Below, piece after piece: positions 3,019-41,557 of a stretch of 64,000 nt of DNA. This DNA comes from Mesostigma viride. Its lineage: Eukaryota; Streptophyta; Mesostigmatophyceae; Mesostigmatales; Mesostigmataceae. The DNA is taken from positions 3,260,823 to 3,324,822 of the forward strand of contig RPFO01000072.1 of assembly GCA_009746045.1 (NCBI GenBank). Reading direction: 5' to 3'. Made by a program: the position numbers and the translations under genes. The notes beneath the pieces are model-generated. The model saw only the letters and a list, made by a program, of their open reading frames with translations. It searched no databases and was not told where the DNA came from. Each line of letters starts with the position of its first letter. Positions within the stretch are counted from its first letter, which is position 1.

Positions 3019-3396
3019 AGTTATGGGAAACACAGAGCTGGAAATGCTCAGGCAGTGCCAAATGGCGTGTGTGTGAACGACGAGACACCATGGCATTAGG
3101 ATAGAATGGCACAAATACCGCTGGTCAGCCGTCACTTGCGGCTGACCAGACTTTGCGTAAGTTAAGCCTAACTTACTGATCCTGGACGGACTAGCCTATC
3201 AGTTACAACCTGATCTAGTCAGTCCTAACATGACAACTACAGTCCCGGTACTGAGGCACCGGCTCATCACATACTGAGTATAGCCACGTGTCCATGCCAC
3301 GACTGCTCTAGTCCAGCACCGTCCCAGTACCCAATTGGGCGCCGGCGGTGCTGGCACGTGTCCACTTAGGCTACAGGCGGGAGACTTAGACTAACT
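3019..3396 (-). repeat. 3' LTR of retrotransposon 1 (uninterrupted)
   Basis: 378 bp, matched along its length by the copy at 14,110-15,153. Ends form a short inverted repeat AGTTA/TAACT. Position 3,333-3,337 (AATTG) is the empty target of the palindromic element that occupies the other LTR. Confidence 0.93.
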
Positions 3397-3418
3397 CCCA
3401 CTTTAAGTTTTCTTTGGG
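3397..3418 (-). promoter_or_regulatory. Polypurine tract of retrotransposon 1
   Basis: On the minus strand AAAGAAAACTTAAAGTGGG directly precedes the 3' LTR start AGTTAG. That is the expected position of the plus-strand primer. Confidence 0.6.
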
Positions 3419-3777
3419 TTTCAACAGAAACACACATAGCCATCAAATGGACGCAGCCATTCCCAATGCCTTAAAAAACTGTCAGATAACCTACTAGGAC
3501 CCAAAGGTCACCTCACACATGTACAAGAGATGCATTAAAAAGGCCCCATGTCTCAAGCATGGTTTCTTAACTGAGTGAGATGGGTGCTCAGGCCCCAGCA
3601 TGTCATGGTCATCCAAACAAGTGTCTCAAAAATTTTATTCAATAAATAACACATTCATCATGTCCCAACTTTCTAGACCAGTGCTTCTCACTGTCAGAAA
3701 ACTACCCAGCTGCCACTGCAGCCTTTCAGCTGCAGTATTAGGCAGGGGGTCATGGGCTAACATGTACAACGTGCCAG

Positions 3778-5904
3778 TCACTTCAGACTGTAACCAGGGT
3801 TCATCAACCCATACAAGACCTGGTATTGTGGTCCTGCTGCTTGTGGCACCTTGGTCAGTGCATCTGCAGCATTGTCTTTGTCCCTGACGTGGGCTTTAGA
3901 CTCCAGGTACTTGCATTCCTGTTTTAGCACAATCCAATCCAGGTCCGAGTGTACAGCCAAAGGATTGGCAAGGAAAGAGATGATAGATTGAGAGTCAGTC
4001 AGCAAATGTGCTTTCACTCCTGCAGAGCTACCAGCCTGGTGTTGAAGCCAGACCAGCAAGTGATTGAGATACCTTGCATGCAAGACAGAAGATACCACAG
4101 CCCTGCATTCAGCTACATTGCTACTCACAGCTTTCCTCTTGTGCAATCTACTGAACCAGGAGACTAGTGACTTCTTCCCACCTTGGTTATGCAGGAAAAA
4201 CAATCCAGCCTCTCTGGCTTGAACCTTGGTAACTACCCTGGACTCCATTGAACTATCCATCATGCACGTGATGTGAATGGGAGTAAACAGGTCCAGTGAG
4301 TGAAGCATCAAAGGTGGACCATCATGCAACAACTGCTTGATTGCCCGTGCTCCTACCTCCTGTAGTACCTCATCATCTACCCTGCTCACAAAAGCCAGGT
4401 GGGGTGCACATGTAGCACATAGCCAACCAAGCTTGCCTCTAATGGTAGGGCACATGTCAGGGGTGATGTGAACAGGCAGGACATCCAGACAAGACTTAAT
4501 GTATTCAGCAGAGGCCTGCATGGAACAAACCCAGCTGCCCTGCTGCTGCAGCAACTCAAGCATCATGCCACAGAACTTGACTGGCTCCTTGCCCAGCTCT
4601 AGCTGCTTGCCAATCTCAAAACTGGCAGACACCTGAGCTATGAAAGCATCCACTGCAGCTCTAGGACCTGAGATTAACTGATCATCCCCATGCCAGACAA
4701 ACATCATCATTCCATCAGGGTGTGGGATGACAAACAAGCAAGGGTCAATGTCATCATAGGTGGCCCCTAGCTTCATGAATACCTCCTGTGCAGACAGCCT
4801 AAAAATTTTTGGAGCTGACTGCAACCCTTCAACCCCCAGGTTTGGCCTCAACAAGGGTTGAACAATATCCCTGTGCCACACCTTAGGAGTATTCACCACG
4901 TATACCTGACCTCTCCAGACCTGCTGTGCTATGGCAGGGTCCCCCTTTAGAAAGGCTCTTTTGATATCTGTGGCTTTACACACATAATCCTTCCCTGTAT
5001 TAAGCTGATGCAAAAACAAGGAAAGCAACACCTTGAGAGACGTTTGCTGAATACCAGGAGTATAAAGCTCAGCCTCTGTCAGCTCTGTAGAGCCCCTGAA
5101 CTCAGTGACACATGGCCTAGCATGGAAAATGGGTGGTCCCCCATCAGCCTGAGGTTTATGCTTGCACACAAACTTTAACCTTAGCTTCTTGGCTCCAGCT
5201 GGCATAGCATCAAGAGGAGTCACAGGTGGTGTGTGTGTGGGACTACGTGCATCTGGAACAACCCACTCCTCCCTGGCTTTGGTAAAAGCCTCCAGCCACT
5301 TAAGAAACCCAATCTGCGTCTGGCAGTCCCGTACAATATCATCATAGGACAGGGGAGACATGGATGCAACATCCCATCTACCAAGCCCAAACGCTGAAGG
5401 GTGTAGCTTTTGAGAGTGTATGAGGTCCTCCACACACGGTTCCTGACCTGGGAGGTACTTGGGCTTAACTGCATTGATGGCAGCATCCAACCCAGTGCTA
5501 ATCTGGCTCAAAGGGATTTTAAAATGATCTAGAGGCACCTGTCCTACCCCTGCCACACTCAACCTCCCAGCTGAGATGACAACACCAGGGTAAGATACAA
5601 AAGGTTCCCCTAACAGGGCATTCCCTGAGTAACCCTCAACCACCTGAAATGGAGTGGGCATACCCAAGATTTGAATGCTCACCTGACCTTTGACCTGCAT
5701 TTTGGTTTTGCCTGAAAAATCTGACACTCTAGCCCATGGTGAGGCCTTCATTTTCAGACCAGATACAGCTGCTGCACTGATGATACTCACCTGTGCTTGG
5801 GTGTCTACAGCCAAAATACTAGGATCTTGACCTGCATCCCCTACAGCATTGACCTGTGCTGTACCTGTTGCCACAACTGCTTTAGTGTTGTGTGCCTTGT
5901 GCAA
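3778..5904 (-). CDS. Protease-like, copia-type RT and RNase H of retrotransposon 1
   Basis: A 708-codon open frame counted from 5,904; the upstream border with integrase is shifted in frame, so the true start is unknown. Residues 30-130 resemble a retropepsin, but the active-site loop is DTQA (D34) instead of DTGA; a second motif ALLGEPF follows near 96-102. RT follows: DIKRAFLKGDP at 313-323 (the copia DVKxAFLxG motif), then WHGDDQL at 404-410 in place of the usual YVDD. RNase H: MMDSS (D550), AEC (E599), TDSQS (D637), and DALTK at 681-685, the copia end motif. No stops interrupt the frame. It would copy the RNA template to DNA. The HGDD motif, shared by retrotransposon 2, is unusual. Confidence 0.85.
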   Translation of the reverse strand: MHKAHNTKAVVATGTAQVNAVGDAGQDPSILAVDTQAQVSIISAAAVSGLKMKASPWARVSDFSGKTKMQVKGQVSIQILGMPTPFQVVEGYSGNALLGEPFVSYPGVVISAGRLSVAGVGQVPLDHFKIPLSQISTGLDAAINAVKPKYLPGQEPCVEDLIHSQKLHPSAFGLGRWDVASMSPLSYDDIVRDCQTQIGFLKWLEAFTKAREEWVVPDARSPTHTPPVTPLDAMPAGAKKLRLKFVCKHKPQADGGPPIFHARPCVTEFRGSTELTEAELYTPGIQQTSLKVLLSLFLHQLNTGKDYVCKATDIKRAFLKGDPAIAQQVWRGQVYVVNTPKVWHRDIVQPLLRPNLGVEGLQSAPKIFRLSAQEVFMKLGATYDDIDPCLFVIPHPDGMMMFVWHGDDQLISGPRAAVDAFIAQVSASFEIGKQLELGKEPVKFCGMMLELLQQQGSWVCSMQASAEYIKSCLDVLPVHITPDMCPTIRGKLGWLCATCAPHLAFVSRVDDEVLQEVGARAIKQLLHDGPPLMLHSLDLFTPIHITCMMDSSMESRVVTKVQAREAGLFFLHNQGGKKSLVSWFSRLHKRKAVSSNVAECRAVVSSVLHARYLNHLLVWLQHQAGSSAGVKAHLLTDSQSIISFLANPLAVHSDLDWIVLKQECKYLESKAHVRDKDNAADALTKVPQAAGPQYQVLYGLMNPGYSLK

Positions 5905-7298
5905 GGCCTTAAGAATCTCAGCAAATGACTTCCTGGGAACGACAGGATCTGCTCTCTTTGTGACTCCTCCAGGTGTGAGGGAGGTGCTACCTGCTGCTCA
6001 CCCTGTGCACCGTCCTCCTGCCCAGGTGGACTATTGGGTTGTAGTGGGGCTGCACTACTGAGGAACACAGGAGCTTCTACTGTGGTACTAGTGCTTGCAT
6101 CAATGACGTCCTTAGCCAATTCATTGGGTGAGATCAATCCACCAGACTCCTGCTCTGAATCCATGTCCAAGAATTCTACCCCTGACACGTCTGCCAGTGG
6201 TGGGTAATAAAGCTTGAGTCTATGCTTGCTGACCACACGCTCTCTGTCATGTTGTATAGTGACTGCAGTCCCTTCTTCATGAATTTTGGTGACTACAGCT
6301 GGACCGTGCCATCTGGCAGAGTGTGCTCTTCCTCTGTCACCCTCTCTGAAAAACAACACATGGTCCCCCACTTCAAACACAGGCCTGGCATTATTTTTGT
6401 CTTTCTTTGCCAGCAACTTGGCTAAGTGCTGCCTTTGTGTGTTGTAGTGAGTGTGTACCTCTGAAGCATAGCTGCCTGACTGAAGGCCAGTTGGGGTGAT
6501 TTCCCCAAAAGGTGAGGACATTATTGGTTTGGCGTTTAGCTGGGTAGTCACCCCTGCTGCCCAAGATGCCCTGTCAGCATAGCTACCAGAGTCAGCCAAC
6601 CTGGATGGCATTTTTCTTATCACATCCCTGATGGCTCTCATGGTACGTTCTACCAACCCCTGACGTTCATGATCTTGAGCCCCAGACACTTCTATCTTGG
6701 GCAGGTCATTCCTGTCCTGGATGCAGAGAAACTGCTGATCCAGCATTACTTTTTCAATGGGGTGAAAACGTGCCAAGGCTATCTGTAAAGCTCTGTGCAG
6801 CTGCTCTTTATCCATCCCAGGCAGAGGCTCCACTACCACAAACCTTGACCAGGCATCCTTTATGACTAGGTAGTATACCGTGTCCTTCACCACGTGTATA
6901 ACATCCCCAACCAGTTTGCCTCTAGCCAGTGGTGGTGTGGCCACATGCCATTTTCTGGGCTTAGGAGCATATAGCTGACATTGCTCACAGTGCTTACGTA
7001 CGTGCCTGCACATCTGTTCCAGATCATGGCCTTGTATTTTATTGGCTAGCCTTTCAGCCACAGCCTCATGGCCCATAACCTTGTGCAGTTGCTCTGCTAG
7101 AGCACCATACGTGATTACCTTTTCTGCTGCTGCACTAAGGGAAGCTATGGTGGGGTCACGCATCATGTGTGACAGTGTCATATCATATGCCACATCCCAA
7201 TCCACATCCTCACACTCAGGCAACACTTGGCAGACAGAAGGTAACAGGAAACCATTTGTGAAAAATGGTGAGGGTAGCTTACAGGTGTCTCCCTGGTC
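5841..7298 (-). CDS. Integrase of retrotransposon 1
   Basis: The open frame runs from the palindrome fragment at 7,299-7,344 to 5,841. An HHCC zinc finger is visible (HKVMGH, then CEQCQ). The catalytic triad can be followed: D in GDVIHVVKD, D in VMLDQQF, E in QGLVERTMRAIRD. A C-terminal module RWHGPAVVTKI with basic neighbours resembles the GPY/F module of Ty3/gypsy and retroviral integrases, which copia integrases normally lack. The last ~60 bp overlap the protease-RT frame in another frame, so a frameshift (programmed or mutational) is needed. Codons at the start are contributed by the palindrome fragment. Confidence 0.82.
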   Translation of the reverse strand, partial: DQGDTCKLPSPFFTNGFLLPSVCQVLPECEDVDWDVAYDMTLSHMMRDPTIASLSAAAEKVITYGALAEQLHKVMGHEAVAERLANKIQGHDLEQMCRHVRKHCEQCQLYAPKPRKWHVATPPLARGKLVGDVIHVVKDTVYYLVIKDAWSRFVVVEPLPGMDKEQLHRALQIALARFHPIEKVMLDQQFLCIQDRNDLPKIEVSGAQDHERQGLVERTMRAIRDVIRKMPSRLADSGSYADRASWAAGVTTQLNAKPIMSSPFGEITPTGLQSGSYASEVHTHYNTQRQHLAKLLAKKDKNNARPVFEVGDHVLFFREGDRGRAHSARWHGPAVVTKIHEEGTAVTIQHDRERVVSKHRLKLYYPPLADVSGVEFLDMDSEQESGGLISPNELAKDVIDASTSTTVEAPVFLSSAAPLQPNSPPGQEDGAQGEQQVAPPSHLEESQREQILSFPGSHLLRFLRPCTRHTTLKQLWQQVQHRSML

Positions 7299-7344
7299 AG
7301 TTATATACAACGATTCCTGCGGAATCGATACTAAGCGCTTAGTA
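7299..7344. mobile_element. Half copy of the palindromic terminal repeat
   Basis: Begins AGTTATATACAACGATTCCT and matches the 76-bp palindrome of 14,432-14,507 exactly through its centre to CTTAGTA. The remaining arm is missing. In the zinc-knuckle frame it creates a TAG stop. In the integrase frame it is open and adds about 15 codons (KRLVSIPQESLYI). The break lies at nearly the same palindrome position as in the derivative at 21,416. Confidence 0.85.
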
Positions 7345-7669
7345 GCGCTGCCCCCGCGCGGTTGTAGCGCCCTGGCGTGTTCTTGTTGTGCCTGGGAGCC
7401 GTGCAGCGCGCTCCTGCTGCAATGGGGTGACGTGTTTTCCAGCATCCAGGACAAACATCAACGTCAGAACCATAGTCGGGTTTGCCCTTCCAGCAATCAT
7501 CCTTTAGGTGCCCCTTACAAAGGCACCTAGTACAATGTTTGGTGGGGTCATGAGGCAACCTCTTGTCCCCCCCTGCTGGCTTAGCACCCCCTGGCTTGCT
7601 AGCTCCCCCACTTTGTTTTCTGTTTTTGTTGTTATTATTCTCCCCCCCCCTTGTTTCCACCTCCCCCAC
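7331..7669 (-). CDS. Zinc-knuckle (nucleocapsid) part of gag, retrotransposon 1
   Basis: The frame contains CTRCLCKGHLKDDC, a perfect CX2CX4HX4C knuckle, then a second Cys/His cluster (CPGCWKTRH). The N-terminal side is Lys/Asn/Gly-rich, as in nucleocapsids. It follows the capsid frame after a shift at a run of nine C (7,642-7,650). It ends at a stop created by the palindrome fragment, so gag and integrase were probably continuous before that insertion. Confidence 0.75.
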   Translation of the reverse strand: MGEVETRGGENNNNKNRKQSGGASKPGGAKPAGGDKRLPHDPTKHCTRCLCKGHLKDDCWKGKPDYGSDVDVCPGCWKTRHPIAAGARCTAPRHNKNTPGRYNRAGAALLSA

Positions 7670-8424
7670 TTTTATTGTTTTTGTTTTTATCCCCCCGCAT
7701 TACCGCCTTTACCTGGGCCACCAGCGACTGCAACTGCTTTTTAGAGAGCCCCGTACCTGAGGCCTCCTCCCCCTTAACCTGCTTCACCTTTACATCCTTG
7801 GCTGCAGCAGCAAATGGCTCTAGGCACTGCTGCACATAAGCCATTGCTTTCCTGAAGTCCTCCCACTTATCCTTCAGACCTGCCAGTATGACTGACAGGG
7901 TGGTAGGGTCCAGTTCTGCCTTTTGTAGCCATAGGTGCACTAGGTACTTGGCATTGAGCTTCTTAAGCTCCTCATCCCCCTCTATGTACATGACATACTT
8001 CTTGTTGTCACTCACATAGTCACGCTTGTTGACCTTATACGCCTCTATCCACTGGAAGCCCTTAAGTACTTCTAAGTGCTCCCCCGTGGTGACGAGTGCC
8101 CTAAGGTCTACCATGAACTGCGCCCACAAAACATTTTCTGCCACATCTACCCCGCTGCTGGCACGCTTTTGGTACAATTGTACCAACTGCTGGATAGGCT
8201 TGGCAGATTGATGTATGGGTGTGGATGCACGCAGGGATGCAAACCAATCACGCACATTATCACTAGCATACGCATGTGAGAGCTTAAACAACCACTCCCT
8301 AGCCTCGTCCTGGGTATGGCCCTCTGGCAACCCCGGGAACACTAGCTTATCCTCTTTCTTTTTTGGATCAAACCTGGGCCTACACAAGGCCGTGGTGGTG
8401 GTGGTTGTCGTTCCTGCAGGTGGC

Positions 8425-8462
<38 letters not shown>

Positions 8463-8640
8463 CCGCTCCCCGCCCGCTCGTTGTGCCGGTGCAGACTCTT
8501 GGGTGCCGTGTCCTCCCCCGCCCTGGTTGCCCCCCCTTGCTCCGCCATCCTCCTCCTCGTCCCTCCTGCGCTTTGGCTGTGGCCGGTGCATGCCTCCTCC
8601 GGTGCCCTGCGCTTGGCTGGCTTCAGCGAAGCCACCAGCC
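7635..8640 (-). CDS. Gag capsid region, retrotransposon 1
   Basis: The frame is open from about 8,640 (first ATG at 8,591) to 7,635. It has an acidic/basic start, a polyglutamine run (8,427-8,461, CAG/CAA repeats), a Thr run, then a helical, charged region of about 200 residues (from RPRFDPKKKEDKLVFPGL to KAMAYVQQCLEPF) consistent with a retrotransposon capsid. The tail is Lys/Gly-rich. No enzyme motif is present. It joins the upstream coiled-coil part through a +1 shift near 8,600-8,640. Confidence 0.65.
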
Positions 8641-9600
8641 TCGCCACCGTGTCTGCCAGCCTGCCATGCTCGGCCGGGGTGAGTTCCCTCCCCTCGTCCA
8701 GCATCTGCTGCGCCAGCTGGAGTTGCCGCCGGATGTCCTCCCGGTGTGACAATGTCGCTGGACCGGGTTCTCCCCGGTGCGTCACCCTGGTGCGCGCCGC
8801 TGTGCCATCTCTGTTAGAGATGGTGTGCGTGGGCTGCGACAGAAAATGGTACAACTGCTCCGTGGAAATCCTTTCATCCGGTATTAAACCAAATTCAGCT
8901 CTTACCGCCTCCCCCATGCATCCTCTCACAGCAGCCTTCTTGATGTTCTTGGACATGCGACGTCGCTGCTTGAGCATACGCCGCTCCAGCCTGCCGACGC
9001 TCGCCTCCCATATGGCCAGCTTCCGGCGATAACGCTCCTCGGCTTCCCTGCGAGCCGGCCCCTGCAATGGCGCCAGCTCGGCGACCTTCCTGTACTTCCA
9101 GGACTTCATGTCGCGGGTCAGACGCTCACACCGCACCTTGGTGTGAGACATCTTCACCCTAATCCTCGCCGCGAGCGCCCCCGCCCTGTCGCGCTCCTGC
9201 TGCTCGCGCAGCTTCCTCTGCTCAATCGCGTCGCGCCTCCGCTGCTTCTTCTCCCTCTCCGCCTTGAAGACCTCCAGCCTCCGCTTCGCCTCCTTCTCGC
9301 GCTCCTGCATGGCCGGTGTCATCTCCACCAGGTCTTCCGCGTCCGACGCCGACGGTCCCGTCAGGGAAAACTCGGACTCTTGGAGAACCCCGTCGATCTC
9401 CCTCGGGATCGTCTCAGACCTGCGAAGACGTTGGAAACACGCCAGGTCGCCCCGCCTCACCACCTCGTAGGTCGGCGACGCCGGCCTCCTCAGGGCCGCG
9501 CGGACCCGTGCAGCGTCCTCCATCTGCATTGCCCTCTCACGTGACCGCAGATCCTGCCGCCTCTCCTCCGCGGACTCCTCATCAGCAAGGCGACGTGCCA
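8600..9600 (-). CDS. Gag coiled-coil part, retrotransposon 1 (interrupted 5' end)
   Basis: An open frame very rich in Arg, Glu and Lys (for example REKEAKRRLEVFKAEREKKQ), predicted to be a coiled coil of some 280 residues; I recognise no domain. At 9,600 it runs into the CACTA-like transposon. Removing that transposon and one copy of its 2-bp CA duplication joins it in frame to the frame at 13,534-13,914 (AVL followed by ARRLADEES). It is therefore the interior of one gag protein, and the GTG at its edge is not a start. Confidence 0.75.
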
Positions 9601-9626
9601 CACTAGGAACTCAGATTCTGAGAAAT

Positions 9627-9945
9627 TTCTCAAAACCCTCAATTTTCTCACCCTTTGTGAGAATTTTTTGAGAAAATTGAGAAAAATCTCAATTTTTTTC
9701 CGCAAACGCTAGGCAAAAAATCTCACCAGGGTGAGATTTTGGTGAGAAAAAGGGGGTTTAGGTGAGATTGGGGTGAGAAAAAACCCTAAAGTGAGAAAAA
9801 AGGTGAGAATGGGTGAGAAAAAGTGAGAAAAAGTGAGAAAATTGAGAAAATTGAGAAGTTTTCCAACACGAGAAAAATCACTAACACGAGAAAAATCACA
9901 AGTCAACGTGGTGAGAAATTTCTCACCAAGAGTGTAACACGAGAA
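9627..9945. repeat. Left subterminal GTGAGAAA repeats
   Basis: Dense copies of GTGAGAAAA/TTGAGAAAATT variants on the plus strand. The opposite end carries the complementary TTTTCTCAC array. Such arrays are transposase-binding regions in known CACTA elements. Confidence 0.8.
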
Positions 9946-10392
9946 AAATCATGAGCTTTATTTCATTAAGTCCTTAACGTGAAAAAAAAACTCAACACCA
10001 CTTTGATATGCATTATAGGGTGCACAAAGGTGCAATATAGGGTTGTCATACAATATAAAACAGCACATCATTCCATAAACAATGCTGTCATTGAATTGAA
10101 TTGAATTGTAACATAACTCCGTTGGGAGTATATGTAGCACATAGCCCAGAGAAGGGGCATATGGCCTATCATACATTCTAAGCTACTTCCTGCAAGGGTG
10201 GGAATGTAAACAACACTTGCTCTAGGTGCACCAGGGGCACCTACACCCTCATGATCTTCACACTATGCCCAGCTAAGGGGGAGTATGTCATGTGGGGGAA
10301 GATCAACATGGCTATACAAGAGCTAGGGCATGGCTTCTCAGCAGGGCCACTACAAGGCCACTGTCTATCTATTCTACTGCTGCTGTATTCCC

Positions 10393-11866
10393 CTAGGCTG
10401 GGGCTGCCGGAGTCGCTGGGGCCGCGGTGGTTGAGGGGGTCGCGTGCCAGGGCTTGTGGCCGACGTAGATGTCCGCCCCCTTCCAGTACACCGGCTGGCC
10501 CGCCTTGGTCTGCCGGAGCTGGAGGTAGGTCGGCCATAGCTCCCGTCGCCGTTGTTGCTGCGCCAGGGTCAAGTCGTCGTCCACGGTGAAGGGAGTGTTC
10601 TCGAGCCGCTTGCGGCGTCTGAGGAACGAAACCTTGTCCGCTGGGCTCTTAAAGATGAGAAGAAGCGGAGGCGCCCCTGCCTTACCCCGCGCGCGGGGGA
10701 GGCAGTGGGCGGTCAGCTTAATCTCACCAAGGAGGCCCATGCGTGCAAGGATTTTGCTCTCAAACGCACGTGCAAGCTTCTCGGAATTCTCACCTTCCAC
10801 CAGGTCGAAGTTCTTGAGGATGGCGTTTAGGCTGCGCTTGGAGAGCTCGGCCTCCTCGCGGAGGTCAAGTGTCTGCCGCTGGAGCTGGGCTGCGACGGCG
10901 GAGGTGGTGGAGGTGGTATGTTGCTTAAGCATGTCCGCCCAGGTGGTGATGGGAGGAGCATCGCCGGCCAGGCCAGCCGGGGCTGGCTTGGCGGCAATGT
11001 CCTTCACCGCCTGGGCGGTGAGGCCTGCGGTGCTCTGCAGAACCTCGATAGCGATGGCGTTGTCCGGACGCTGGTCGATGTCACGGAGCTGGGCGGTGAT
11101 GGCGTCGGAGGTGGAGGTGGTGGCGGTGGAGGAGGCGAGGAGGGTGGAGGTGGCGGTGGAGATGGTGGAGGTGGCGGTGGAAGGAGGGGAAGCTCGGCAG
11201 TCAGCGTGCCGCCGATGGCCGCCACATCTGCAGCAATGGGGTCCGGATCCACGTGCTCCTCGAGGGCCTCCTTAAGGAGTGAGCGGATGGAGGATTCGGT
11301 AAAGGTGGTGGTGAGAGGCTTGGGGGGCCAAAGCTCCCCGATGGAGCGTCCAAGGAGGGAAAAGAGAGCGACTTGCTGGAGGTAGGGGCGGTGGAGGCTG
11401 GGAATGGTGTCGAAACAGGAGATACGAATCCAGCGAGGGTCAAAGAGGCGACCTTGGTTGAAGAGCTGCTTGCATAGTGCAAGAAGCGAGGCGTGCGTTC
11501 CATGAAACACGCAGACCAGGATGCGTTCCGTGGTAAGCGTGTCAAGGAAGCCGGGCTGGCTGGCTTCGGCGACAAAGTCGGCCGCTATCCAACTCGAAGA
11601 CTAAAAAAGTAACATGCATTAATGGCCCGCATGCATAAAGGGCCTGAATTCTGATGCGGGCCCAACGGCAGCACCGCCAAAGCAGATAAGGGCCCGCAGT
11701 CTGATGCGGGCCCCACGGCACCACCGCCATAGCAGAGCTCGAAGGTCGTGGTGCGCGTGAAACGTACGTATGCCCTTTGTCGGTAGGTGCCGTTGGGGTC
11801 AAATTGGGTGCCGCCAAAATCGGGCCGACGCGTCAATAGACTGAGGCCGTCGATGAGAGCCATCAT
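10393..11866 (-). CDS. Unknown protein of the CACTA-like element with an L1 ORF1p-like C-terminus
   Basis: A minus-strand gene appears to start at the ATG at 11,866 (MMALIDGLSLLTRRP). An intron with repeated GGGCCCGCATCAGA motifs probably ends at TTTTTTAG just before about 11,602. The next exon (ERILVCVFHGTHASLLALCK and following) leads into a Pro-rich linker (11,110-11,200). The last 200 codons (ITAQLRDIDQ to the stop at 10,393) contain a coiled-coil stretch, then LLLIFKSPADKVSFLRRRKR and DDDLTLAQQQRRRELWPTY. That pattern resembles the RNA-binding C-terminal domain of L1 ORF1-type proteins. A frame change within the Pro-rich linker needs an indel or small intron. Function unknown. Confidence 0.5.
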
Positions 11867-12879
11867 GCGGCTTGGGGAACTTCAGCTAAGTTAACTTAAC
11901 GCAAACCACTGGTCGCCCGCGTCGGGAACCGGCCCAACGGCTCTCCCGCAACAGAAAATTACGCGGCATACTGCATAAGTCGTCGGATTGTTACATTTCG
12001 ACGGTCAAGATTTCATGATGAGGTTTGCGTTCAATTTGCCGCAGTTTGCCGCCCAGAGAAAGTAGTTGTTGGACTCGTTGCCCACGATGAAACACAATCA
12101 AGCAAGCCGTTTCCGGCCCCACCGTGTAGGTCATGTAGTCGCTCTTCACGTCAGCCAGCCGTAATTTCAATGCACAAGGCTACACATTTCCATCTCCATT
12201 CATATTCATAATCCTGCACGACTCGAAAACGCGGACAAGATAACGGCAGGCTCGAGCTACCATGGTCCGGATTCTCCCGATTTCTGGCCTGCGCTGGTTG
12301 TCTCCTTGATATTGGCAACTCTCTCCGGTAAGAGATTTTCCGCAGTTTGGCTGTTTCGAAACGTTAATTAAGTGAGATGCCTTCGGATCAGGAGACTCAC
12401 ACAGCCGCGAAATCATGCCAAAGGTCATATGTTCGATCCCTTGCTGGTAGCTTCTGAGCTTTCTTATTTTCTGTGTTCCGCGGAATCTCAGATTTGGGCC
12501 GCTAGCGTTTTCACGTTTGTTGCTTTCTGATCCGACGACAACGTTGTGCCTTGCTCGTGTGACATCTGGCGCATGGTGTGATTCATGTGTATGGTGCTGC
12601 CTTGCCACATGGGGCTGCTTTGCCATAAGAGTGAATGTTGGGTTCTACACATTTGCTGCATGGACCGTTAGGTGCTGGTGAGCTCTTCCTTGTAGAATGG
12701 TGATGTCTATGTCAAGGATCTGATTTCTTTTCCTCTTGCGTATATTGTGTCGGTTTGCTTTATTTCTTGCAGGGACCACGAGAGTAAAATGCAAGCGGTT
12801 CCACTTTCAAGTCAGCATGTGACGCCCTGTCGACCGGCCCGCTTTGTTAGCTAGCTACCATATAGTATTTGATGATAGG
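11867..12879. other. Non-coding part of the CACTA-like element
   Basis: No gene with convincing codon use on either strand. A minus-strand open stretch at 12,180-12,626 has no recognisable domain and is left unannotated. Confidence 0.4.
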
Positions 12880-13029
12880 CATTGAATGCGGAAGATGTCA
12901 TAACGCCATAACAGACTGTGTTGAACAGGCATTGAATGCCGAAGATGTCATAACGCCATAACAGACTGTGTTGAACAGGCATATTTGAATGCCGAAGATG
13001 TACATAACGCCATAACAGTGTTGAATAGT
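12880..13029. repeat. Tandem repeat, about 50 bp x 3
   Basis: Three units with the core GAAGATGTCATAACGCCATA and ending near GTGTTGAA. The third unit has small indels. Confidence 0.85.
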
Positions 13030-13184
13030 TGAATCAACGGGTTCTTGCAGCTGTAAACATTAAAATTATTCAAACATTTAATGAAAAAATCATTATTGTT
13101 CATGCTGTCTTGAACAGCGGTTGTTACTGGCACTGCATGCATGTGTCTGCTGCCAGCATATTGCATTATGGGTGTGTTTTTCAG

Positions 13185-13517
13185 CGCTGTGTTTTCTCAC
13201 TTTTCTCACTTTTCTCACGTCCTGTTTTTCTCACTTTTCTCACTTTTCTCACGTCCTGATTTTCTCACTTTTCTCACGTTTCACACCTCCCGTTTTTCTC
13301 ACTTATCTCACGTCCTGTTTTTTGAGATTTTTCTCACGTTTTTCCCCTTTTTTCACCTTTTTGGGGCAATCTCACCCGGGTGAGAAACGTGTTTTCTCAC
13401 CCATTCTCACCCCATTCTCACCCTTTTTTCTCACCTTTCTCACCCATTCTCACCCATTTCTCACCCTTTTTCTCACCTTTCTCACCCTTTTTCTCACCAT
13501 TTCTCACCCATTCTCAA
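13185..13517. repeat. Right subterminal TTTCTCAC repeats
   Basis: Complement of the left array: dense TTTTCTCAC and CACCCATTCTCAC variants next to the right terminal repeat. Confidence 0.8.
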
Positions 13518-13533
13518 AGCCGAGTTCCTAGTG

Positions 13534-13914
13534 CAGGACAGCGTCGGCTTCCACCTGCGCCGAGCGTGCCTCATCTGCCGACGAGGGCTGCATGCCAACT
13601 GACAAGCCGAGAGAGCTAGACTCTGACTCCTCGCCCGACTCCCCGCCAGTCTTCTCACCCGACGAGGTGACACCCGGCCCCGCACCACACGGTGCATATG
13701 GCGGACCCCTCGGAGCCCGTGCCACCACCGGTGTCGAACCCCTCACCCGACGCATGAGAGGGATGCGCACAACTTCCTGCACAACGTCCCGGTAAGACGG
13801 GTCCTCCTCCTCAGCGTCATCGGGGTGCATCTCATCCCGGGTGTTCCTGTCCAAAATCTCCTGGCGCAAACTCGCCAGATCCGAGTCTGATGTCCCCGAG
13901 TCGTCAGACAACAT
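13534..13914 (-). CDS. N-terminal gag segment, retrotransposon 1
   Basis: Starts MLSDDSGTSDSDLASLRQEI at 13,914, about 195 bp inside the 5' LTR border. Strongly acidic and Ser-rich, no recognised domain. At 13,534 it is cut by the CACTA-like insertion. Without that, it continues in frame into the coiled-coil part ending at 9,600. I chose this ATG because it is the first in frame after the LTR and the following 120 codons are open. Confidence 0.7.
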
Positions 13915-14535
13915 GGGGGACGAGGATGACTGATACTACGGCACCTCCTCTTCTGAAGATGCCTCCTTCAGGGCCTTGCCCTTGTTGTTCGGAGCGTTCT
14001 TGGGAGCCATTTTTCGAAAAATGTGGGTAGAAAAAGAGAGTGTGAAAAATGGGTTTGTTTTTGCTCGTCGTTTTTAACGCGTGTGTTTTTACCGGAGTTT
14101 TTTAATGCAAGTTATGGGAAACACAGAGCTGGAAATGCTCAGGCAGTGCCAAATGGCGTGTGTGTGAACGACGAGACACCTTGGCATTAGGATAGAATGG
14201 CACAAATACCGCTGGTCAGCCGTCACTTGCGGCTGACCAGACTTTGCGTAAGTTAAGCCTAACTTACTGATCCTGGACGGACTAGCCTATCAATTACAAC
14301 CTGATCTAGTCAGTCCTAATAACATGACAACTACAGTCCCGGTACTGAGGTACCGGCTCATCACATACTGAGTATAGCCATGTGTCCATGCCACGACTGC
14401 TCTAGTCCAGCACCGTCCCAGTACCCAATTGAGTTATATACAACGATTCCTGCGGAATCGATACTAAGCGCTTAGTATCGATTCCGCAGGAATCGTTGTA
14501 TATAACTAAGACTGTTGCGACACGCCGGCATCCCG

Positions 14536-14546
14536 GGTTCGAATCC
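14536..14546 (+). promoter_or_regulatory. tRNA-like B box (Pol III) inside the small element
   Basis: GGTTCGAATCC is a perfect B-box/T-loop sequence within CCCGGGTTCGAATCCCGC, which can form a T-arm-like stem. It lies 29 bp after the left palindrome. No full tRNA can be drawn. A weak A-box-like TAACTAAGACTG overlaps the palindrome end. Confidence 0.5.
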
Positions 14547-14869
14547 CGCTAGGATCGTTCCGGGGGTGGATTTTTCGCCTAGTAATACGAATAACGTTGC
14601 GGACGCTAATCGTTCGGCCTAATATGTTAATCGAAATAGGCAAGTGCTCTCCGCTTACTAGGCGGAGTACCAGCGCTAGCTATTCGACTGATATGATGTG
14701 CTCAACCGGCTAATCATCTGTGTTGTTCGACGTCGCTCCGAAAATCGGCTAAGTCCCCGAAATCGGCTAAGTTCCACGCGATGTCTCGCTATAATGGACT
14801 AGGCCTAGTTCGGTGGCTCGCTGGGCACCGAGTATGATAGGCCGCTGGCCTCTGACCCCCTGTCGAATA

Positions 14870-14968
14870 GGAAATTTCGACAATCGAATAAGGAAAATTC
14901 GATAATCGAATAGGAAAGTTCGATGGTCGAATAGGCAACTTCGATAATCGAATAGCCAATTCGATGAC
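14870..14968. repeat. Degenerate tandem repeat with TCGAATAGG units
   Basis: About five units of roughly 20-22 bp (AATCGAATAGGAAAGTTCGA-like) in the 3' half of the small element. Confidence 0.7.
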
Positions 14969-15158
14969 CCGACTAGTATCGGCCTTAGCCTTGCCGGCGC
15001 AAGCAAAAGTTTTAGTTATATACAACGATTCCTGCGGAATCGATACTAAGCGCTTAGTATCGATTCCGCAGGAATCGTTGTATATAACTAATTGGGCGCC
15101 GGCGGTGCTGGCACGTGTCCACTTAGGCTACAGACGGGAGACTTAGACTAACTCTGAC

Positions 15159-20784: not shown

Positions 20785-21628
20785 AGTTAATATGGCTGTT
20801 ACGTCCAAGCTCTAAAAGAGAAGAAAGGGCTGGAGTTAATATTTATATATTGCCTGGCAAGCAATATTATTCTACTAAGCTACTTGGCTTGTAGAGATTC
20901 TACTTCCGGTTACTACAATCCAGAAACGGGTTCATTCTGATGAGTATTGCTCGAGATATGAGCAAGATACTGTTCTACTACATTCTACTTGGATTCGGTG
21001 ATTCTACGGTGGTTCTTCAAGTGACGCGTGGCATACGACGTCTTGTCACAGTGTACGATAGGACATTTAGTCTCCGACACTAGCTGCGGTCTATTCAATG
21101 CTATTGATTAGACGTAACAAATAGTGACAGGACTTGTGCGACAGGACACTGATGTGACAGTTTATGGATAACGAGTCGAGATCTGCTGGTCCAGAGTGAA
21201 GGACAGCAATATTGTGAGATGATCTGTCCTATCAGTCATCTGGATGTGACTGCGTCACAATTAGTATATAACGAGCAGGACGCTGCCACTTGGTAGCACC
21301 ACTTTCCCTGCACCTGTGTCCTCGCACCTTCGGCGACGGTTCTCACGTGCCTTGTGCGTTCTGTGCTGGTAGCCATAACCAGCAACGTAAACCTATTGAT
21401 TAATATAACTACTTCAGTTATATACAACGATTCCTTACGGAATCGATACTAAGCGCTTAGTACCTTGCCGGCGCAAGCAAAAGTTTTAGTTATATACAAC
21501 GATTCCTTACGGAATCGATACTAAGCGCTTAGTACCGATTCCGCAAGGAATCGTTGTATATAACTACTTCCTCTGTAGATATTAATCAGTGCAGGCTGAA
21601 CCACAGTTCAGCCACAGTTTCTTTAACT
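20785..21628 (+). repeat. 5' LTR of retrotransposon 2
   Basis: Matches 41,578-42,278 apart from the insertion at 21,416-21,565 and small indels. Ends AGTTAAT/TTTAACT. Confidence 0.93.
21416..21565 (+). mobile_element. Deletion derivative of the palindrome-ended element
   Basis: The left part (21,416-21,464) is the first two-thirds of a palindrome. It is followed by the last 23 bp of the interior (TTGCCGGCGCAAGC..., the same right end as at 14,991-15,013) and a complete 78-bp palindrome with two mismatches (21,488-21,565). The TSD ACTTC is at 21,411-21,415 and 21,566-21,570. The partner LTR has the empty site at 42,216-42,220. Confidence 0.88.
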
Positions 21629-21709
21629 CGAATTACAATCGAGTTCGTAATCTACTGATTACGGCATTGATTTCTGGTGTCGGCAAATTTTACGGTGTTT
21701 TTCCATTAT

Positions 21710-22237
21710 ATGGGAAACACGCGTGAATATCGTGAGCCATCTCCCGAGCGTGCGTCGGCTCCGTCGTCTTCAGGCTTTCATTTCAACGTTCAACGTACGG
21801 CATCGACTGCTGCGCTGCATTCGCGTGCTGTTCAACCTTCGCTGTCTCAAGCGCTCGTCAGCAGGCCGCCAGTTTCTAACGATCTGCATCAGTTCGTCGA
21901 CGACCTTACTCAAGATTTGGAAATCCTGTCGGAAAATTCCCATATTTTCCGAAGGCTTGCAGCGTCGGGATCAGACGAACAAGCTCAAGTAATTTCGGCG
22001 CTTCGCACCTACGGCTTGGGTGTTCTGGCGTTGGCGACAGCGTGGTCTGGAATTTCGGCGACTCTTCCGGCTGTCGCTGTTCCGATTAGCAACAACGGGT
22101 GGGCGTCGTCAGTCGACGGTATCATAAACGTTGCTGCTTCGATCCAGCGGCAATCAAACGCTGAGGAGCCAGGTGAAAATAACGAAGGGCTTCCTGATTT
22201 ATATCCGGGTAATAATTGTGCAGCAGATTTTGGATAA
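21710..22237 (+). CDS. Small 5' open frame of retrotransposon 2, unknown
   Basis: Starts MGNTREYREPSPERASAPSS, 82 bp after the LTR, and gives 175 codons without stops. The N-terminus is Ser/Pro-rich. Then comes a mixed helical region (VDDLTQDLEILSENSHIFRR) and a hydrophobic stretch (TYGLGVLALATAWSGI). I recognise no domain. It precedes gag and could be an extra N-terminal gag product. An intact frame in an otherwise broken element is notable. Confidence 0.5.
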   Translation: MGNTREYREPSPERASAPSSSGFHFNVQRTASTAALHSRAVQPSLSQALVSRPPVSNDLHQFVDDLTQDLEILSENSHIFRRLAASGSDEQAQVISALRTYGLGVLALATAWSGISATLPAVAVPISNNGWASSVDGIINVAASIQRQSNAEEPGENNEGLPDLYPGNNCAADFG

Positions 22238-22426
22238 CGTATTGCAGCATCCGCGCGACGATATGCGGCTGGATTAAATTTTCTGTTATAATTAACAGTA
22301 AATTAATTCAGGAAATTTTTTTCTTGGTTCCAGAGCTTAAGGGATTAATTTATTAATTCCCCAGCTGTATTCTTTCTTCGGCATCGGCATCGGCATCGGC
22401 AGTTGTCATCGGCATTTGCAGCGACC
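22238..22426 (+). other. Spacer before gag
   Basis: AT-rich leader; a GGCATC repeat (22,380-22,400) precedes the gag ATG. Nothing else seen. Confidence 0.5.
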
Positions 22427-23245
22427 ATGCAGGGTTTGGAAGACGGCGAGATACGCGACGACTGGGTGCTGCGGGGTCAGAATTTTAATCGTCCAGCAGC
22501 AGCAGCAGCAGAGCAGCCCCGCAGAGCCAAGGCCCAGGAGGGCTTTGCTATTCTTAACCAGCTTCCCAGTCTCAAGGAGCACTGGACTGTTAAGGATAAG
22601 GATATCACCATTAGGCACCATTAGGGATATAAGGGCTTGTATAATGGTAACAATCCTCTGCAGGCGCTGTGTATGTCTCAGTACCTTCTTAAGTGTCCCA
22701 AGAGGGTGCAGAAGTATGTAAATGACAAGTTTGAGGATGGAGATTCCTGGGATGTTTTTATAGCTGAGTTTGAGGTGTTCCTAGATGATAAGAGGGCTAG
22801 TGATGGGTCCTTTTGGAAGAAGGAGTACATTGATTTCAAGGCTGAGGGCCTGATTCTGCAGGCATTTGAGGATTTTCAGGAGCTGAGGCACAATTGTGCT
22901 GGCAAGGGGTATGTAGTGTCAGATGAGATTGCCATGGATAATTTTCCTAGGTAGCCTGGGATTGGATGAGGTCACCTTGGATAACCTGCAGGTGCACATG
23001 CGTACATGCACCACCTGGGCTGCTATGGTGGCCAAGATCAAGGATTATTTCAGGGGCAAGTATGTGGGAGGCAAGAAGGAGGCAGACAAGGCCAGGGAGA
23101 AGCAGAAGGAGAAGGACAAGGTGGAGGTGGCAGCCGCAGCAGGGGTCAGTGTTCCCAAGGTCAAGGGCAACCAATGGGGGGGGCAGCCCTCCAACGGTTA
23201 TGGCCCACCAAGGTCAGGGCCTTCCAAGCGTGGGGGCTTCCAGGC
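22427..23245 (+). pseudogene. Gag of retrotransposon 2, 5' part
   Basis: Begins MQGLEDGEIRDDWVLRGQNF at 22,427. An in-frame TAG at 22,622-22,624 interrupts it. The same frame continues through a capsid-like segment (LLKCPKRVQKYVNDKFEDGD; EYIDFKAEGLILQAFEDFQE). Near 22,950 it shifts by one base to LGLDEVTLDNLQVHMRTCTT and a Lys/Gln-rich region. At 23,245 the copia element is inserted. Removing it with one CAGGC copy joins GGFQA to NGFSGFKRCG in frame at 29,371. Confidence 0.75.
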
Positions 23246-23992
23246 TGTTGAAAGAACTAATGGGTTTGCCTTCTACAATGCTTGTGATTGAAACCCAAAT
23301 GTGCCTGTCCTTGCAGGTACAGGCTATGGAGGATGGGAGCAAAGAGACAGAGACTCAGTTTGAGGCAGAATGATAGTGAGGAGTGCCTTTGGCAAGGCTC
23401 CTCAGTTGTTTTATTAACTCGAGGAAAAAACACAGGCAGAAAACTGGGATGACCCAGTGATTGGCTGGCTAGGAATGTGCCTAGGAATATTCTCATGTAA
23501 TACTCAGGCCACCAATCAGGTTAGGTCAGTGTACAGGCTACCAATCAGATCTAGACAAGAATAAATCTTATCTTGTAACTGCTGTACAGCCTTATCTTGT
23601 AACTGATGTACAGTCTTAACTTGTAACTGCTGCACAGTAATCTAACTATTTAATAAAAGATCTCTCTATGTGTGATCTGATGATGATGAAGTAAATCTGG
23701 CGTGAACATATCAGCGCCACATCTGACATGCACAGTGTACATGTCAATCAGTCAGCTGTCCTGTCATAGATTCTCATCTGACATGTCATAGGTCAGCTGA
23801 CATAGACAGATTTGTCAGCTGCCTATAAGGATCCACCTGGCATAGGTACTAATCCCTGATTACTAAAACTGGCCACAACTTTCTCATTTGTAGGCCAAAT
23901 CCAACGGGATAAAAACAGTGGCTCCTGTACAAGAGCCTCTATCTATCTAGCCAGGTCAGGTGGGTACAAATACAAGGACCATGTCCTTGACA
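23246..23992 (-). repeat. 3' LTR of the copia element
   Basis: 747 bp, paired with 28,622-29,365. On the minus strand a G-rich tract (TAAGGGGGG, 23,993-24,001) directly precedes it. Confidence 0.95.
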
Positions 23993-24093
23993 CCCCCCTT
24001 ACAACACATGACCTTGCTCTAGTGCTATCCTGTCAAGTATAACACTTAGAGCAAAAAAGCTCTCAGCCCCTGTGGGCATATACAACTGCATAT

Positions 24094-24708
24094 CTAAGTA
24101 GACACCAGCAGCTTGTCCCGCAGGGTGATGAACCGTGCCCTTCCCAGGGCCTTGGTGAAGATGTCAGCCAGGTTGTCCTTGCCAGGGCAGTGACGCATGC
24201 AGATGGAGCCCCCCTCCACCTGCTCACGGATGAAGTGGTAGCGCACGTCGATGTGCTTGGTGCGCTTGGGGTGCACAGGGTCCTTGGCCAGGGCCACCGC
24301 GCCAGTGTTGTCGCACAGCACGGTCGTGGGCCCCTCCACAGGTGCACCCAGGTCTCCCAGCAGGCGCCTGAGTGGCAGCACCAGCTGGGTGACGCTGCTC
24401 GCAGCAATGTACTCTGCCTCGCAGGAAGACAGAGCAACAATGGGTTGCTTGCGGCTGCACCACTCCACGGGCGCACCCCGGAACAGGACCAGGTTGCCCG
24501 TCACAGAGCGTCTGGACTCTGGGCAGTTAGCCCAGTCAGCGTCAGTCCAGGCCTCCAGCCCCCCTTCCTGACCATACCGCAGACCCTTGTCCCTCGTGGT
24601 GTAGAGGTACCGGATCAGGCGGTCGGCAGCCTCCATGTGGGCCGCCGTGGGTGCCTGCATGTGCTGGCCAGTTGGTTGACAGCAAAAGCAATGTCTGGAC
24701 GTGTCCAC
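24094..24708 (-). CDS. RNase H of the copia element
   Basis: Contains WTDADWANCPESRRS, ALSSCEAEY, LCDNTGAVAL and NLADIFTKAL, the D, E, D and C-terminal signatures of copia RNase H. It ends LLVST at 24,094. The frame differs from the RT frame; the change lies near 24,670 (AVNQLA to QHMQAPTAAHMEAADR). Confidence 0.92.
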   Translation of the reverse strand: MDTSRHCFCCQPTGQHMQAPTAAHMEAADRLIRYLYTTRDKGLRYGQEGGLEAWTDADWANCPESRRSVTGNLVLFRGAPVEWCSRKQPIVALSSCEAEYIAASSVTQLVLPLRRLLGDLGAPVEGPTTVLCDNTGAVALAKDPVHPKRTKHIDVRYHFIREQVEGGSICMRHCPGKDNLADIFTKALGRARFITLRDKLLVST

Positions 24709-27104
24709 AGCGCGACATACAGCACGGCACCGGTTTTGGACTGATACAGCTGGGTGTCCGGGGCATTTAGCTGCATTCCCCCCTCGCGTTGGGGACTAAC
24801 ACGGGACACACTGACCGGGGTGCGTACAGGGAAGGAGGGAGAAAGCCCAAAGCGGGCAGCCAGGGCCTCAATATACACAGTTTGGTGCAAGGAAAGAGAC
24901 CGGGAAACAGGGTCGACATGGAGAGAAACACCGAGGAAAAAAGAAGGGTCATCGGACTCGGTGATCTGAAACTTGCTGGCCAAACGATGAGACCACGAGG
25001 CCAGCCAGGAAGAGGAAGGACTGCCTGCAATAATGTCGTCGACATGGACAAACACAAACGTACGAGACGTGGGATACACGTACAGGCAGGAATCCGTTGG
25101 GCTTTGTACAGCACCATCGGAGAGAAGATAGGCACTAAATGTTTTGTGCCAGTTACGTGGTGCCTGCTTGATGCCATAGAGGCTGCGTTGCAGCTTCCAC
25201 ACCAGCACATCACCAGCGGCATCACGCTGCTCAAAGCCAGCAGGAGGACGCACATAGACGTCCTCAGAAAGTGGGGCGTACAAAAACGCAGTGCGAACAT
25301 CAAGTTGCTTCAGCACATACCCAGACGAGACACCAAAAGCTAGTGCCAAACGAATGGTGGAGGAACGAACAGTAGGGCTAAAGACCTCAGTGAAATCTAT
25401 GCCTTCCCGCTGAGCAAAGCCCTTCACAACAAAACGGGCCTTGAAACGGCCATCGCTTTTGACAGCAAACACCCACCGAGATGGAAGGACCTTGGCAGTG
25501 CGAGGAAGAGACTTGGAAGAAACGAGTGAATATACTGCATGCTCGCGAATGCTAGAAAGCTCACTATCCATCGCAGCACGCCACTCAGGGCTAGCATGGG
25601 CCTCAGCAAAAGAGGAGGGGATGGACGTGGAACCTGAGCTAGTGTGGAGTGAGAAAGTATCAAACAGATCACGCACACTCATGTAGTCAGGGTAAAAACG
25701 AGCCCATTTAGGGGAAACACGATCAAGAGGGGTTGTGGGTAACACCTGAGCGAGGGGATCATGTGCAACGCCGTCGGACACCAGTGCAGCAGTGGCCATA
25801 GCGGCAGCCGGTTGCTTGCCGCGGAGGGCCTGCACTAATTTGTGTAGCTGGGACGAAGAAGGAGATTCAGCAGCAGGTGTGTCTGCCGTCGACACGTGTC
25901 CAGGTGGTGTAGAGGTAGAAGCCGACGACGCCTCCAGCGCAGGACTTGGTGCGAAAACAGGTGCAGACTCAGACTCAGCGGGTTTGGGCTCAGGACTTGG
26001 CGCTGGCGCCTCCTCCAGTGGCGAGCCCCCCTCACCACTGGCATCCCCCGACAAAGCCTCCAGTGGCGAGCCCCCCTCACCACTGGCATCCCCCAAAGCA
26101 GTGCCCCCACTGCTGGCAGCGCCCACAGCAGCGTCCTCACTGCTGGCAGCGGCGCGCCGCGCCATGGCTCTAGTCACAGGACCAGAGGGCGGTAGGGCCA
26201 GAGTAGTATCAGGCCCAGGGACAGAATTCTCAGTGACCGGTGGCAGCAGAAGCTCGGAAGCCTCCTCCCCCTCCACCAGTGCCGGCAGCAGCTGAGGTGA
26301 TGGCAGGGCGTCGTTGCGCCAGGCCTCATTGAAGGCCACGTGGCGACGTTGCACCAAAGTGCGAGTGGCGGAGTCCAGGATCAGATATGCCGGCGAGTCG
26401 GGAGCATAACCGACAAAAATGCCAGGCATGGCCTTGGCCTCCAGCTTGCCACGATGCCCTTCCACACGATGCCAGGCTGGGCAGCCGAAAATGCGCATGT
26501 GCGACAGATCAGCGTGATGACCTGTCAGCAAAAAGTGTGGCGTGGCATCACCAGGATTCGAGGAGCACGGCAGGCGGTTCAGGATATAAATAGCACACTG
26601 GAGTGCCAATGCCCAGTATGCCTTCCCCAGGCCGGCGTGTGTCAACATCGCCAGAGTCATGCCCATTGCCAGGCCCCAGAGCCGCTCCGCTACGCCGTTC
26701 TGCTCAGGGCAGTAAGGCGCGGAGAACTCCTGGTGGACGCGGTGTTCAGCACACACCGCCCGCCAGGCTTGACCGGTGAAGACCGCGTCGTTGTCGGTGC
26801 GCAGCACGACAGAGCCGGCGTAGAAGGGGCGAATATCGCGGACGAGCAGCTCTGCAAACCGCCCCACCGCCTCGTCCTTGGTCTTGAGCGCAAACCCCCA
26901 TCGCCACCGAGTGGCATCGTCAGTGATGCCCAAGAAGTAGCGGGCTCCCCCCAGCGACTCGACGCTCATCGGGCCCAGCAGGTCGCCATGAAGCTTGGCG
27001 CGCGGCACAGTGGATCGCCGCTGCCCTGGCGGAAATGGCTGGCGCTTGATGAAGCCAGCCGGGCAGGATGGGCAGCCAGGAGCAGTTGGACTCCTCGTCG
27101 TCAA
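24615..27104 (-). CDS. Integrase and reverse transcriptase of the copia element
   Basis: 829 codons. Integrase core: GDLLGPM (D), RTDNDAVF (D), PEQNGVAERLW (E), and the CPSC half of the zinc finger at the start. A Ser/Pro/Ala-rich linker follows (about residues 280-430). RT: WVFAVKSDGRFKARFVVKGF, QLDVRTAFLYAPL, SLYGIKQAPRNW and HVDDIIAGS with the catalytic DD. The order and motifs are textbook Ty1/copia. A frame change near 27,100 separates it from the pre-integrase segment. Confidence 0.93.
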   Translation of the reverse strand: MTTRSPTAPGCPSCPAGFIKRQPFPPGQRRSTVPRAKLHGDLLGPMSVESLGGARYFLGITDDATRWRWGFALKTKDEAVGRFAELLVRDIRPFYAGSVVLRTDNDAVFTGQAWRAVCAEHRVHQEFSAPYCPEQNGVAERLWGLAMGMTLAMLTHAGLGKAYWALALQCAIYILNRLPCSSNPGDATPHFLLTGHHADLSHMRIFGCPAWHRVEGHRGKLEAKAMPGIFVGYAPDSPAYLILDSATRTLVQRRHVAFNEAWRNDALPSPQLLPALVEGEEASELLLPPVTENSVPGPDTTLALPPSGPVTRAMARRAAASSEDAAVGAASSGGTALGDASGEGGSPLEALSGDASGEGGSPLEEAPAPSPEPKPAESESAPVFAPSPALEASSASTSTPPGHVSTADTPAAESPSSSQLHKLVQALRGKQPAAAMATAALVSDGVAHDPLAQVLPTTPLDRVSPKWARFYPDYMSVRDLFDTFSLHTSSGSTSIPSSFAEAHASPEWRAAMDSELSSIREHAVYSLVSSKSLPRTAKVLPSRWVFAVKSDGRFKARFVVKGFAQREGIDFTEVFSPTVRSSTIRLALAFGVSSGYVLKQLDVRTAFLYAPLSEDVYVRPPAGFEQRDAAGDVLVWKLQRSLYGIKQAPRNWHKTFSAYLLSDGAVQSPTDSCLYVYPTSRTFVFVHVDDIIAGSPSSSWLASWSHRLASKFQITESDDPSFFLGVSLHVDPVSRSLSLHQTVYIEALAARFGLSPSFPVRTPVSVSRVSPQREGGMQLNAPDTQLYQSKTGAVLYVALWTRPDIAFAVNQLASTCRHPRRPTWRLPTA

Positions 27105-28530: not shown

Positions 28531-28609
28531 GGTTGATCTGGGTCTGGGTGTTGTCTCTGGGGTAGTCAGATGAATGTCTCTGCTCCTCAAATGCAGGGTA
28601 GGCATCAAA

Positions 28610-28621
28610 CCTCCGATACCA
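28610..28621 (-). promoter_or_regulatory. Primer-binding site of the copia element
   Basis: The minus strand reads TGGTATCGGAGG directly after the 5' LTR, close to the initiator-Met-tRNA primer site (TGGTATCAGAGC) common in copia elements. Confidence 0.8.
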
Positions 28622-29365: not shown

Positions 29366-29370
29366 CAGGC

Positions 29371-29599: not shown

Positions 29600-29620
29600 C
29601 AGGCTCAGCCTTCCCTGGGC

Positions 29621-30134: not shown

Positions 30135-30207
30135 AGCAGGTTGCTGAGGCTTGTTCCTGTAGGCTGGTTGCTCCCAAGCCTATAAGAAGTCTCATGTCAG
30201 ACAACCT

Positions 30208-40938: not shown

Positions 40939-40943
40939 GGAAG

Positions 40944-41273: not shown

Positions 41274-41286
41274 TTTCTATATATGT

Positions 41287-41524: not shown

Positions 41525-41557
41525 TTTCTATATATGTGTTGCCAAGCCTAACAGCTC

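Follow-up and report, generated by a model that had tools for sequence, protein, structure and literature searches.

TRIM and SMART elements are small and non-coding, carry terminal direct repeats, make 4-6 bp TSDs and leave solo forms; among green algae they occur in Chlamydomonas and Volvox, for example (PMC4717578). A survey of plant TRIMs describes a working definition: less than 1,500 bp, a complete copy and a solo LTR with different TSDs, and no retrotransposon proteins (PMC4717578). A structural definition given elsewhere names a primer site, a polypurine tract and repeats of 100-250 bp (PMC6934838). Helenus, Ajax and Cassandra are described as TRIMs with Pol III promoters that have a PBS, a PPT and tRNA or 5S sequence in the LTR. 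They make 5-bp TSDs, occur in plants and fungi and ride autonomous LTR elements (PMC10886601). The same source mentions truncated tRNA primers in some Copia lineages. LTR retrotransposons with non-canonical (non-TGCA) ends have atypical terminal dinucleotides and 4-6 bp TSDs, and the ends named in PMC5659011 include TG-GA, TA-CA, TG-TT and AA-CA.

Among the DNA transposons, we consider KolobokP, as described in PMC9587614, to be closest in architecture to the element reported here. Its interior is bounded by direct repeats of about 450 or 660 bp, each with a pair of inverted ends of up to 18 bp. The solo repeats are mobile, with 3-5 bp TSDs and 5'-RR...YY-3' ends (PMC9587614). Ginger, according to PMC2836005, links integrases with DNA transposons and ends in TGTNR. 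Foldback elements and MITEs have hairpin-forming inverted ends and no coding capacity. Mesostigma viride is an early-branching streptophyte alga. Two papers on its genome report LTR elements as the largest repeat class, at 27.9% in PMC6947507.

We analyzed a 64-kb stretch of M. viride DNA (the window) that contains an element whose terminal direct repeat is a perfect 76-bp palindrome. All statements on this element are based on four copies in that one window. Our preferred reading, to which we give a probability of about one half, is that the element is a non-autonomous, TRIM-like rider of a lineage of LTR retrotransposons represented in the window by two members, A and D. A palindromic terminal repeat of this kind, tied to an LTR lineage with non-canonical ends, is unusual.

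Results

A miniature element with palindromic terminal repeats

The element and its copies have the following parts (no strand is assigned to any of them).

14427..14431: left TSD AATTG of the full copy (right copy 15090-15094, empty site 3333-3337)
14432..15089: full copy (repeat-interior-repeat, 658 bp), TSD AATTG
14432..14507: left terminal repeat, a perfect 76-bp palindrome
14508..15013: non-coding interior, 506 bp, with outer 23 and 22 bases forming an imperfect inverted repeat
15014..15089: right terminal repeat, a perfect 76-bp palindrome identical to the left repeat
21416..21565: deletion derivative, made of a left repeat remnant, the last 25 interior bases and a right repeat of 78 bp
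55545..55620: solo repeat, TSD GTGGC
7299..7344: half copy, palindrome positions 1-46, without TSD, within an open frame of LTR retrotransposon A (see below)

A preliminary description of this DNA had reported two identical, perfectly palindromic 76-bp repeats around a 506-bp non-coding interior, and our comparison of 14432-14507 with 15014-15089 bears this out. The palindrome arms are 38 bp each, and no other perfect palindrome with arms longer than 13 bp was found in the window (spacers of 0-6, 8 and 10). With DNA parameters, the repeat folds with a z of -17.8, and none of 200 shuffles was as stable. The palindrome could also adopt a branched fold, which is weaker than the rod (-21.9 versus -40.5 kcal/mol). 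One frame is open throughout the palindrome on both strands (25 codons). The interior has no long open frame, the longest being 81 codons from stop to stop. The element ends in AGTTA...TAACT, not in TG...CA. The preliminary description also knew of no TRIM with palindromic LTRs, and our search of the open-licence literature (titles and abstract openings) returned none among the matches listed.

Perfect palindromes are limited to the full copy and its two ends; between the arms, one pair is unmatched in the solo repeat and two in the right repeat of the derivative. The TSD GTGGC assigned earlier to 55545-55620 stands. By eye, the copies differ by two substitutions (solo versus full) and one inserted base (derivative versus full) that are mirrored in both arms, and by three more differences that are not mirrored. 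Because of the three mirrored differences, the palindrome may be either tolerated or kept by arm-to-arm copying. The half copy, which had also been described earlier, is read in frame inside the integrase-bearing frame of A. The two truncated repeats, 7299-7344 and 21416-21464, break almost alike, after palindrome position 46 in one case and between positions 46 and 49 in the other.

Terminal sequence shared with two resident LTR retrotransposons

The full copy and the derivative each lie in an LTR of a larger element. Two further LTR elements of the window served as controls.

3019..15153, minus strand: LTR retrotransposon A, ends AGTTA...TAACT, TSD CTGAC
3019-3396 and 14110-15153: LTRs of A, the second containing the full copy
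20785..42278, plus strand: LTR retrotransposon D, ends AGTTA...TAACT, TSD CCAAG
20785-21628 and 41578-42278: LTRs of D, the first containing the derivative
30163-32801: pol pieces of D, related to A
23246..29365, minus strand: control B, an ordinary copia-type LTR element, TG...CA, TSD CAGGC
34040..40938, strand not assigned: control C, an LTR element, TG...CA, TSD GGAAG

Both controls are nested within D. The element shares its ends and its TSD length with A and D, whereas B and C have TG...CA ends. For instance, the LTR that contains the full copy itself begins with AGTTAT and finishes with TAACT. Searching the window for AGTTA...TAACT between identical 5-bp flanks yielded six pairs: A, D, three copies of the element, and one pair joining the left end of the derivative to its empty site. 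When these letters were put in any of the 29 other orders, the search yielded between 0 and 3 pairs. The borders of the A and D LTRs, which came from a self-comparison that preceded the motif idea, agree to within one base.

A has Pfam matches to reverse transcriptase (4e-7) and integrase (1.2e-5), both below the Pfam curated cut-offs, and the matches of D are weaker (reverse transcriptase 0.078). Between D and A, identity is 28% in the integrase region, 33% in a protease-like stretch and 35% in the reverse transcriptase. Because their ends are common and their pol pieces match, we place A and D in one lineage with unusual ends. Like the non-TGCA elements, A, D and the palindromic element combine atypical ends with a TSD in the 4-6 bp range; their AG...CT differs from the four pairs of ends named in PMC5659011. 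The integrase frame of A had no relative at E 0.001 among 7,995 candidates scored, and the half-copy stretch of A had none at E 10 among 3 candidates. The open frame 24615-27179 (minus strand) matches the predicted protein jgi/Mesvir1/28068, whose name we read as that of M. viride, with 99% identity over 97% of the query.

Gene order in A and D is apparently integrase, protease-like, reverse transcriptase, the protease-like stretch being a weak Pfam match (E 0.083). In copia elements the protease precedes the integrase; in A and D the protease-like stretch comes after the integrase frame. With this apparent order, their AGTTA...TAACT ends and no TGG primer site, A and D may represent an undescribed lineage of LTR retrotransposons. 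The sequence of D just before its 3' LTR (41279-41524) recurs near the left edge of the window, at 1256-1499, as an inverted match of 246 bp and 97%. AGTTA was not seen in 1140-1260.

The common ends and TSD length suggest that insertion of the element probably depends on an integrase of the A/D type, which would recognise the AGTTA ends. This match was absent from the preliminary description, and it adds to the TRIM-like reading proposed there. Taken by itself, agreement in this pentamer has a probability near 1 in 1,000 per family, which counts against the rider and leaves room for an accidental likeness.

Insertion as one unit with 5-bp target duplications

The element is inserted as one unit, with 5-bp target duplications and the same terminal pentamer as A and D. 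All three intact insertions have an exact 5-bp TSD (AATTG, ACTTC and GTGGC, chance about 0.001 each), while the half copy 7299-7344 has none. The preliminary description had made its reading depend on 5-bp TSDs in most copies, and no intact copy lacks one. For two insertions it had also named empty sites, and the joined flanks confirm both. For the full copy (TSD AATTG, empty site 3333-3337), they align to the partner LTR of A with 137 identical positions, 3 mismatches and 2 gap positions, the gaps stemming from unequal left ends. For the derivative (TSD ACTTC, empty site 42216-42220), they align to the partner LTR of D with 0 mismatches before the end of the LTR; the 12 mismatches all fall past that point. 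The GTGGC site of the solo repeat has no empty counterpart in the window except a loosely similar upstream stretch, judged by eye.

Two palindromes that had inserted separately on either side of unrelated DNA would be another explanation, which we rejected. In the full copy, neither repeat is flanked by a TSD of its own, and the right junction recurs in the derivative, which matches the full copy at 25 of 25 of the last interior bases. Since the derivative retains these bases exactly, the junction between interior and right repeat is a family trait.

Measured to the right edge of the host LTR, the distance is 59 bp for the empty site 3333-3337 and 58 bp for 42216-42220. The post hoc chance of this shared distance is 0.008, and A and D are oppositely oriented. 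In folds of 40-mers around the target sites, 3316-3355 and 42199-42238 are among the lowest 1.8% and 7% of the window, and the third site is at 67%.

Because a palindrome reads alike on both strands, identical palindromic repeats are always both direct and inverted repeats. One may therefore ask whether the element belongs with the ordinary foldback elements or MITEs, its ends being inverted, its LTR look coming from the palindromes and its AGTTA match to A and D being accidental. The derivative bears on this question. Its left remnant and right repeat are identical at 49 of 49 positions in the direct register and have 3 mismatches in the inverted register, although one of the three diagnostic positions may stem from the interior, given a two-base overlap at the deletion joint. 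These asymmetric positions fit the direct register only; in this copy the terminal repeats also behave as direct repeats, unlike those of foldback elements and MITEs, but the interior ends are inverted (below). The direct-register pattern, seen in a single copy, is the one expected of copying off a single template in the manner of LTRs. The ends also match those of two LTR elements of one lineage. In favor of a foldback or MITE origin are the inverted ends and the folding of the interior (below) and the chance, about 1 in 1,000 per family, of a pentamer coincidence. We regard such an origin as very improbable.

Priming sites and structure of the interior

The controls show the expected priming sites. 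B has a TGG primer site and a purine run at the LTR, and C, read on the plus strand, has both as well; in each, TGG starts at the first or second base past the LTR and the purine run is at the opposite LTR. All four LTR elements, A to D, show a purine run of 8 or more that lies within 11 bases of the LTR (for C, the examined sequence ended three bases before the LTR). In the palindromic element, neither orientation shows a TGG among the first 33 interior bases or a purine run of at least 6 among the last 50. The element therefore lacks the polypurine tract before the 3' LTR that A, B, C and D have. In this respect it resembles non-LTR DNA, since 72% of random 50-mers of the window also have no purine run of at least 6. 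The TGG test does not discriminate, because A and D likewise have no TGG primer site adjoining the LTR.

The outer 23 and 22 interior bases, as imperfect inverted repeats, reach a score equalled by 2 of 20,000 random pairs drawn from the window and by none of 16,071 drawn from the interior. In an end-anchored test the score was 14, against a best of 5 in 300 shuffles. Unanchored local tests of the interior showed no significance: 116 of 2,000 shuffles did as well, as did 349 of 5,000 pairs from the window. The interior also folds better than its shuffles (z -4.85, 0 of 100). Inverted interior ends, a stable interior fold and the missing purine run suit a DNA transposon or a foldback element.

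A tRNA or SINE origin was rejected, as ARAGORN found no tRNA. The interior has a B-box-like pattern, GGTTCGANNCC, which occurs in the window twice on the plus strand and once on the minus strand and so is not unusual there; this sets the element apart from Helenus, Ajax and Cassandra. In Rfam, 14300-15220 gave 9 matches, none of which reached its gathering score; seven were to microRNA-precursor models and fell on the hairpins (best E 4.6e-5), and two were to other models. A 33-mer core had 0 exact matches in viral_contigs, and a 23-mer core had 0 in genome_contigs and 0 in viral_contigs, collections that would rarely include this alga.

Element class and mode of movement

The element has much of what defines a TRIM. 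It is 658 bp long (below the limit of 1,000-1,500 bp) and encodes no retrotransposon proteins. There is a complete copy together with a solo and a second copy, each with its own TSD in the 4-6 bp range (AATTG, ACTTC, GTGGC), and the ends are compatible with those of the resident LTR retrotransposons A and D. It thus qualifies as a TRIM by the working definition, as given in PMC4717578. Its repeat is a 76-bp palindrome where 100-250 bp is usual (PMC6934838), its ends are AG...CT, and neither a TGG primer site nor a polypurine tract was found. Because the structural definition, as given in PMC6934838, does not apply, we call the element TRIM-like in the way it works rather than a TRIM. Of the miniature LTR element that had been proposed earlier, the direct terminal repeats, the 5-bp TSDs and the full, solo and deleted forms remain; no TGG primer site or polypurine tract was found, and the interior ends are imperfect inverted repeats.

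If the element is a rider, the copy step would run through RNA and reverse transcription, which would make both repeats alike; this step is less clear than insertion, as movement at the DNA level competes with it. A repeat that folds into a hairpin would be an awkward template for reverse transcription. Solo repeats may arise by recombination between the two repeats or by movement of the repeat itself, which could move because every palindrome bears a complete pair of ends.

The architecture and solo forms also recall KolobokP. The element would then be a composite DNA transposon in which the interior lies between two direct repeats, each made of nothing more than two 38-bp inverted ends back to back; an unknown transposase would produce the 5-bp duplications. 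As each repeat has its own inverted ends, a solo repeat would move as an independent transposon. We do find an interior between direct repeats with their own inverted ends and a mobile solo repeat, AG...CT fits RR...YY, the interior ends are inverted, and no TGG primer site or polypurine tract was found. However, no transposase gene was recognised in the window (Pfam, 16 distinct open frames, a non-exhaustive set). KolobokP itself codes for a transposase, has repeats of hundreds of bases with short inverted ends, and appears in animals only in the account of PMC9587614; in the Mesostigma element the whole repeat is a palindrome. The preliminary description had named a linked transposase with inverted ends matching the palindrome as the mark of an ordinary foldback transposon. 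None was seen in the window, and the ends that match are those of an LTR retrotransposon lineage, which lowers the weight of a DNA-transposon reading, since the ends common to A and D would have to be accidental. We consider a KolobokP-like origin less likely than the rider but a serious rival to it.

The A/D integrase might instead act as a transposase and move the element at the DNA level, without an RNA step. Each palindrome would be a pair of integrase end sites, and full, deleted and solo forms would move alike. This would explain why the element has the ends and TSD length of A and D, and no reverse-transcription priming sites were seen. It offers no ready cause for the direct-register identity of the derivative's repeats. 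Retrotransposon integrases are not known to mobilize DNA elements in trans, which also counts against it. Ginger shows that integrase-like enzymes can serve DNA transposons, but as described in PMC2836005 it encodes its own enzyme and ends in TGTNR, not in AGTTA...TAACT. We judge this mode of movement clearly unlikely.

The TRIM-like rider thus remains our preferred reading. If the element is a TRIM, an LTR can be a perfect 76-bp hairpin, which limits what an LTR must contain. DNA-level movement by the A/D integrase would instead mean that an enzyme of retrotransposons acts as a transposase, and such parasitism would naturally link LTR retrotransposons with DNA transposons in one genome. Under either reading, the rare ends common to the element and A/D pair a rider with a candidate helper, which makes their relation directly testable. 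Lists of TRIMs based solely on terminal repeats and TSDs could contain composite DNA transposons.

The window holds another palindrome-bearing element at 49962-51689. It is 1,720 bp long and has a TTAA duplication and inverted ends, CTCGTCGTCTGTCC, with a short palindrome just inside either end.
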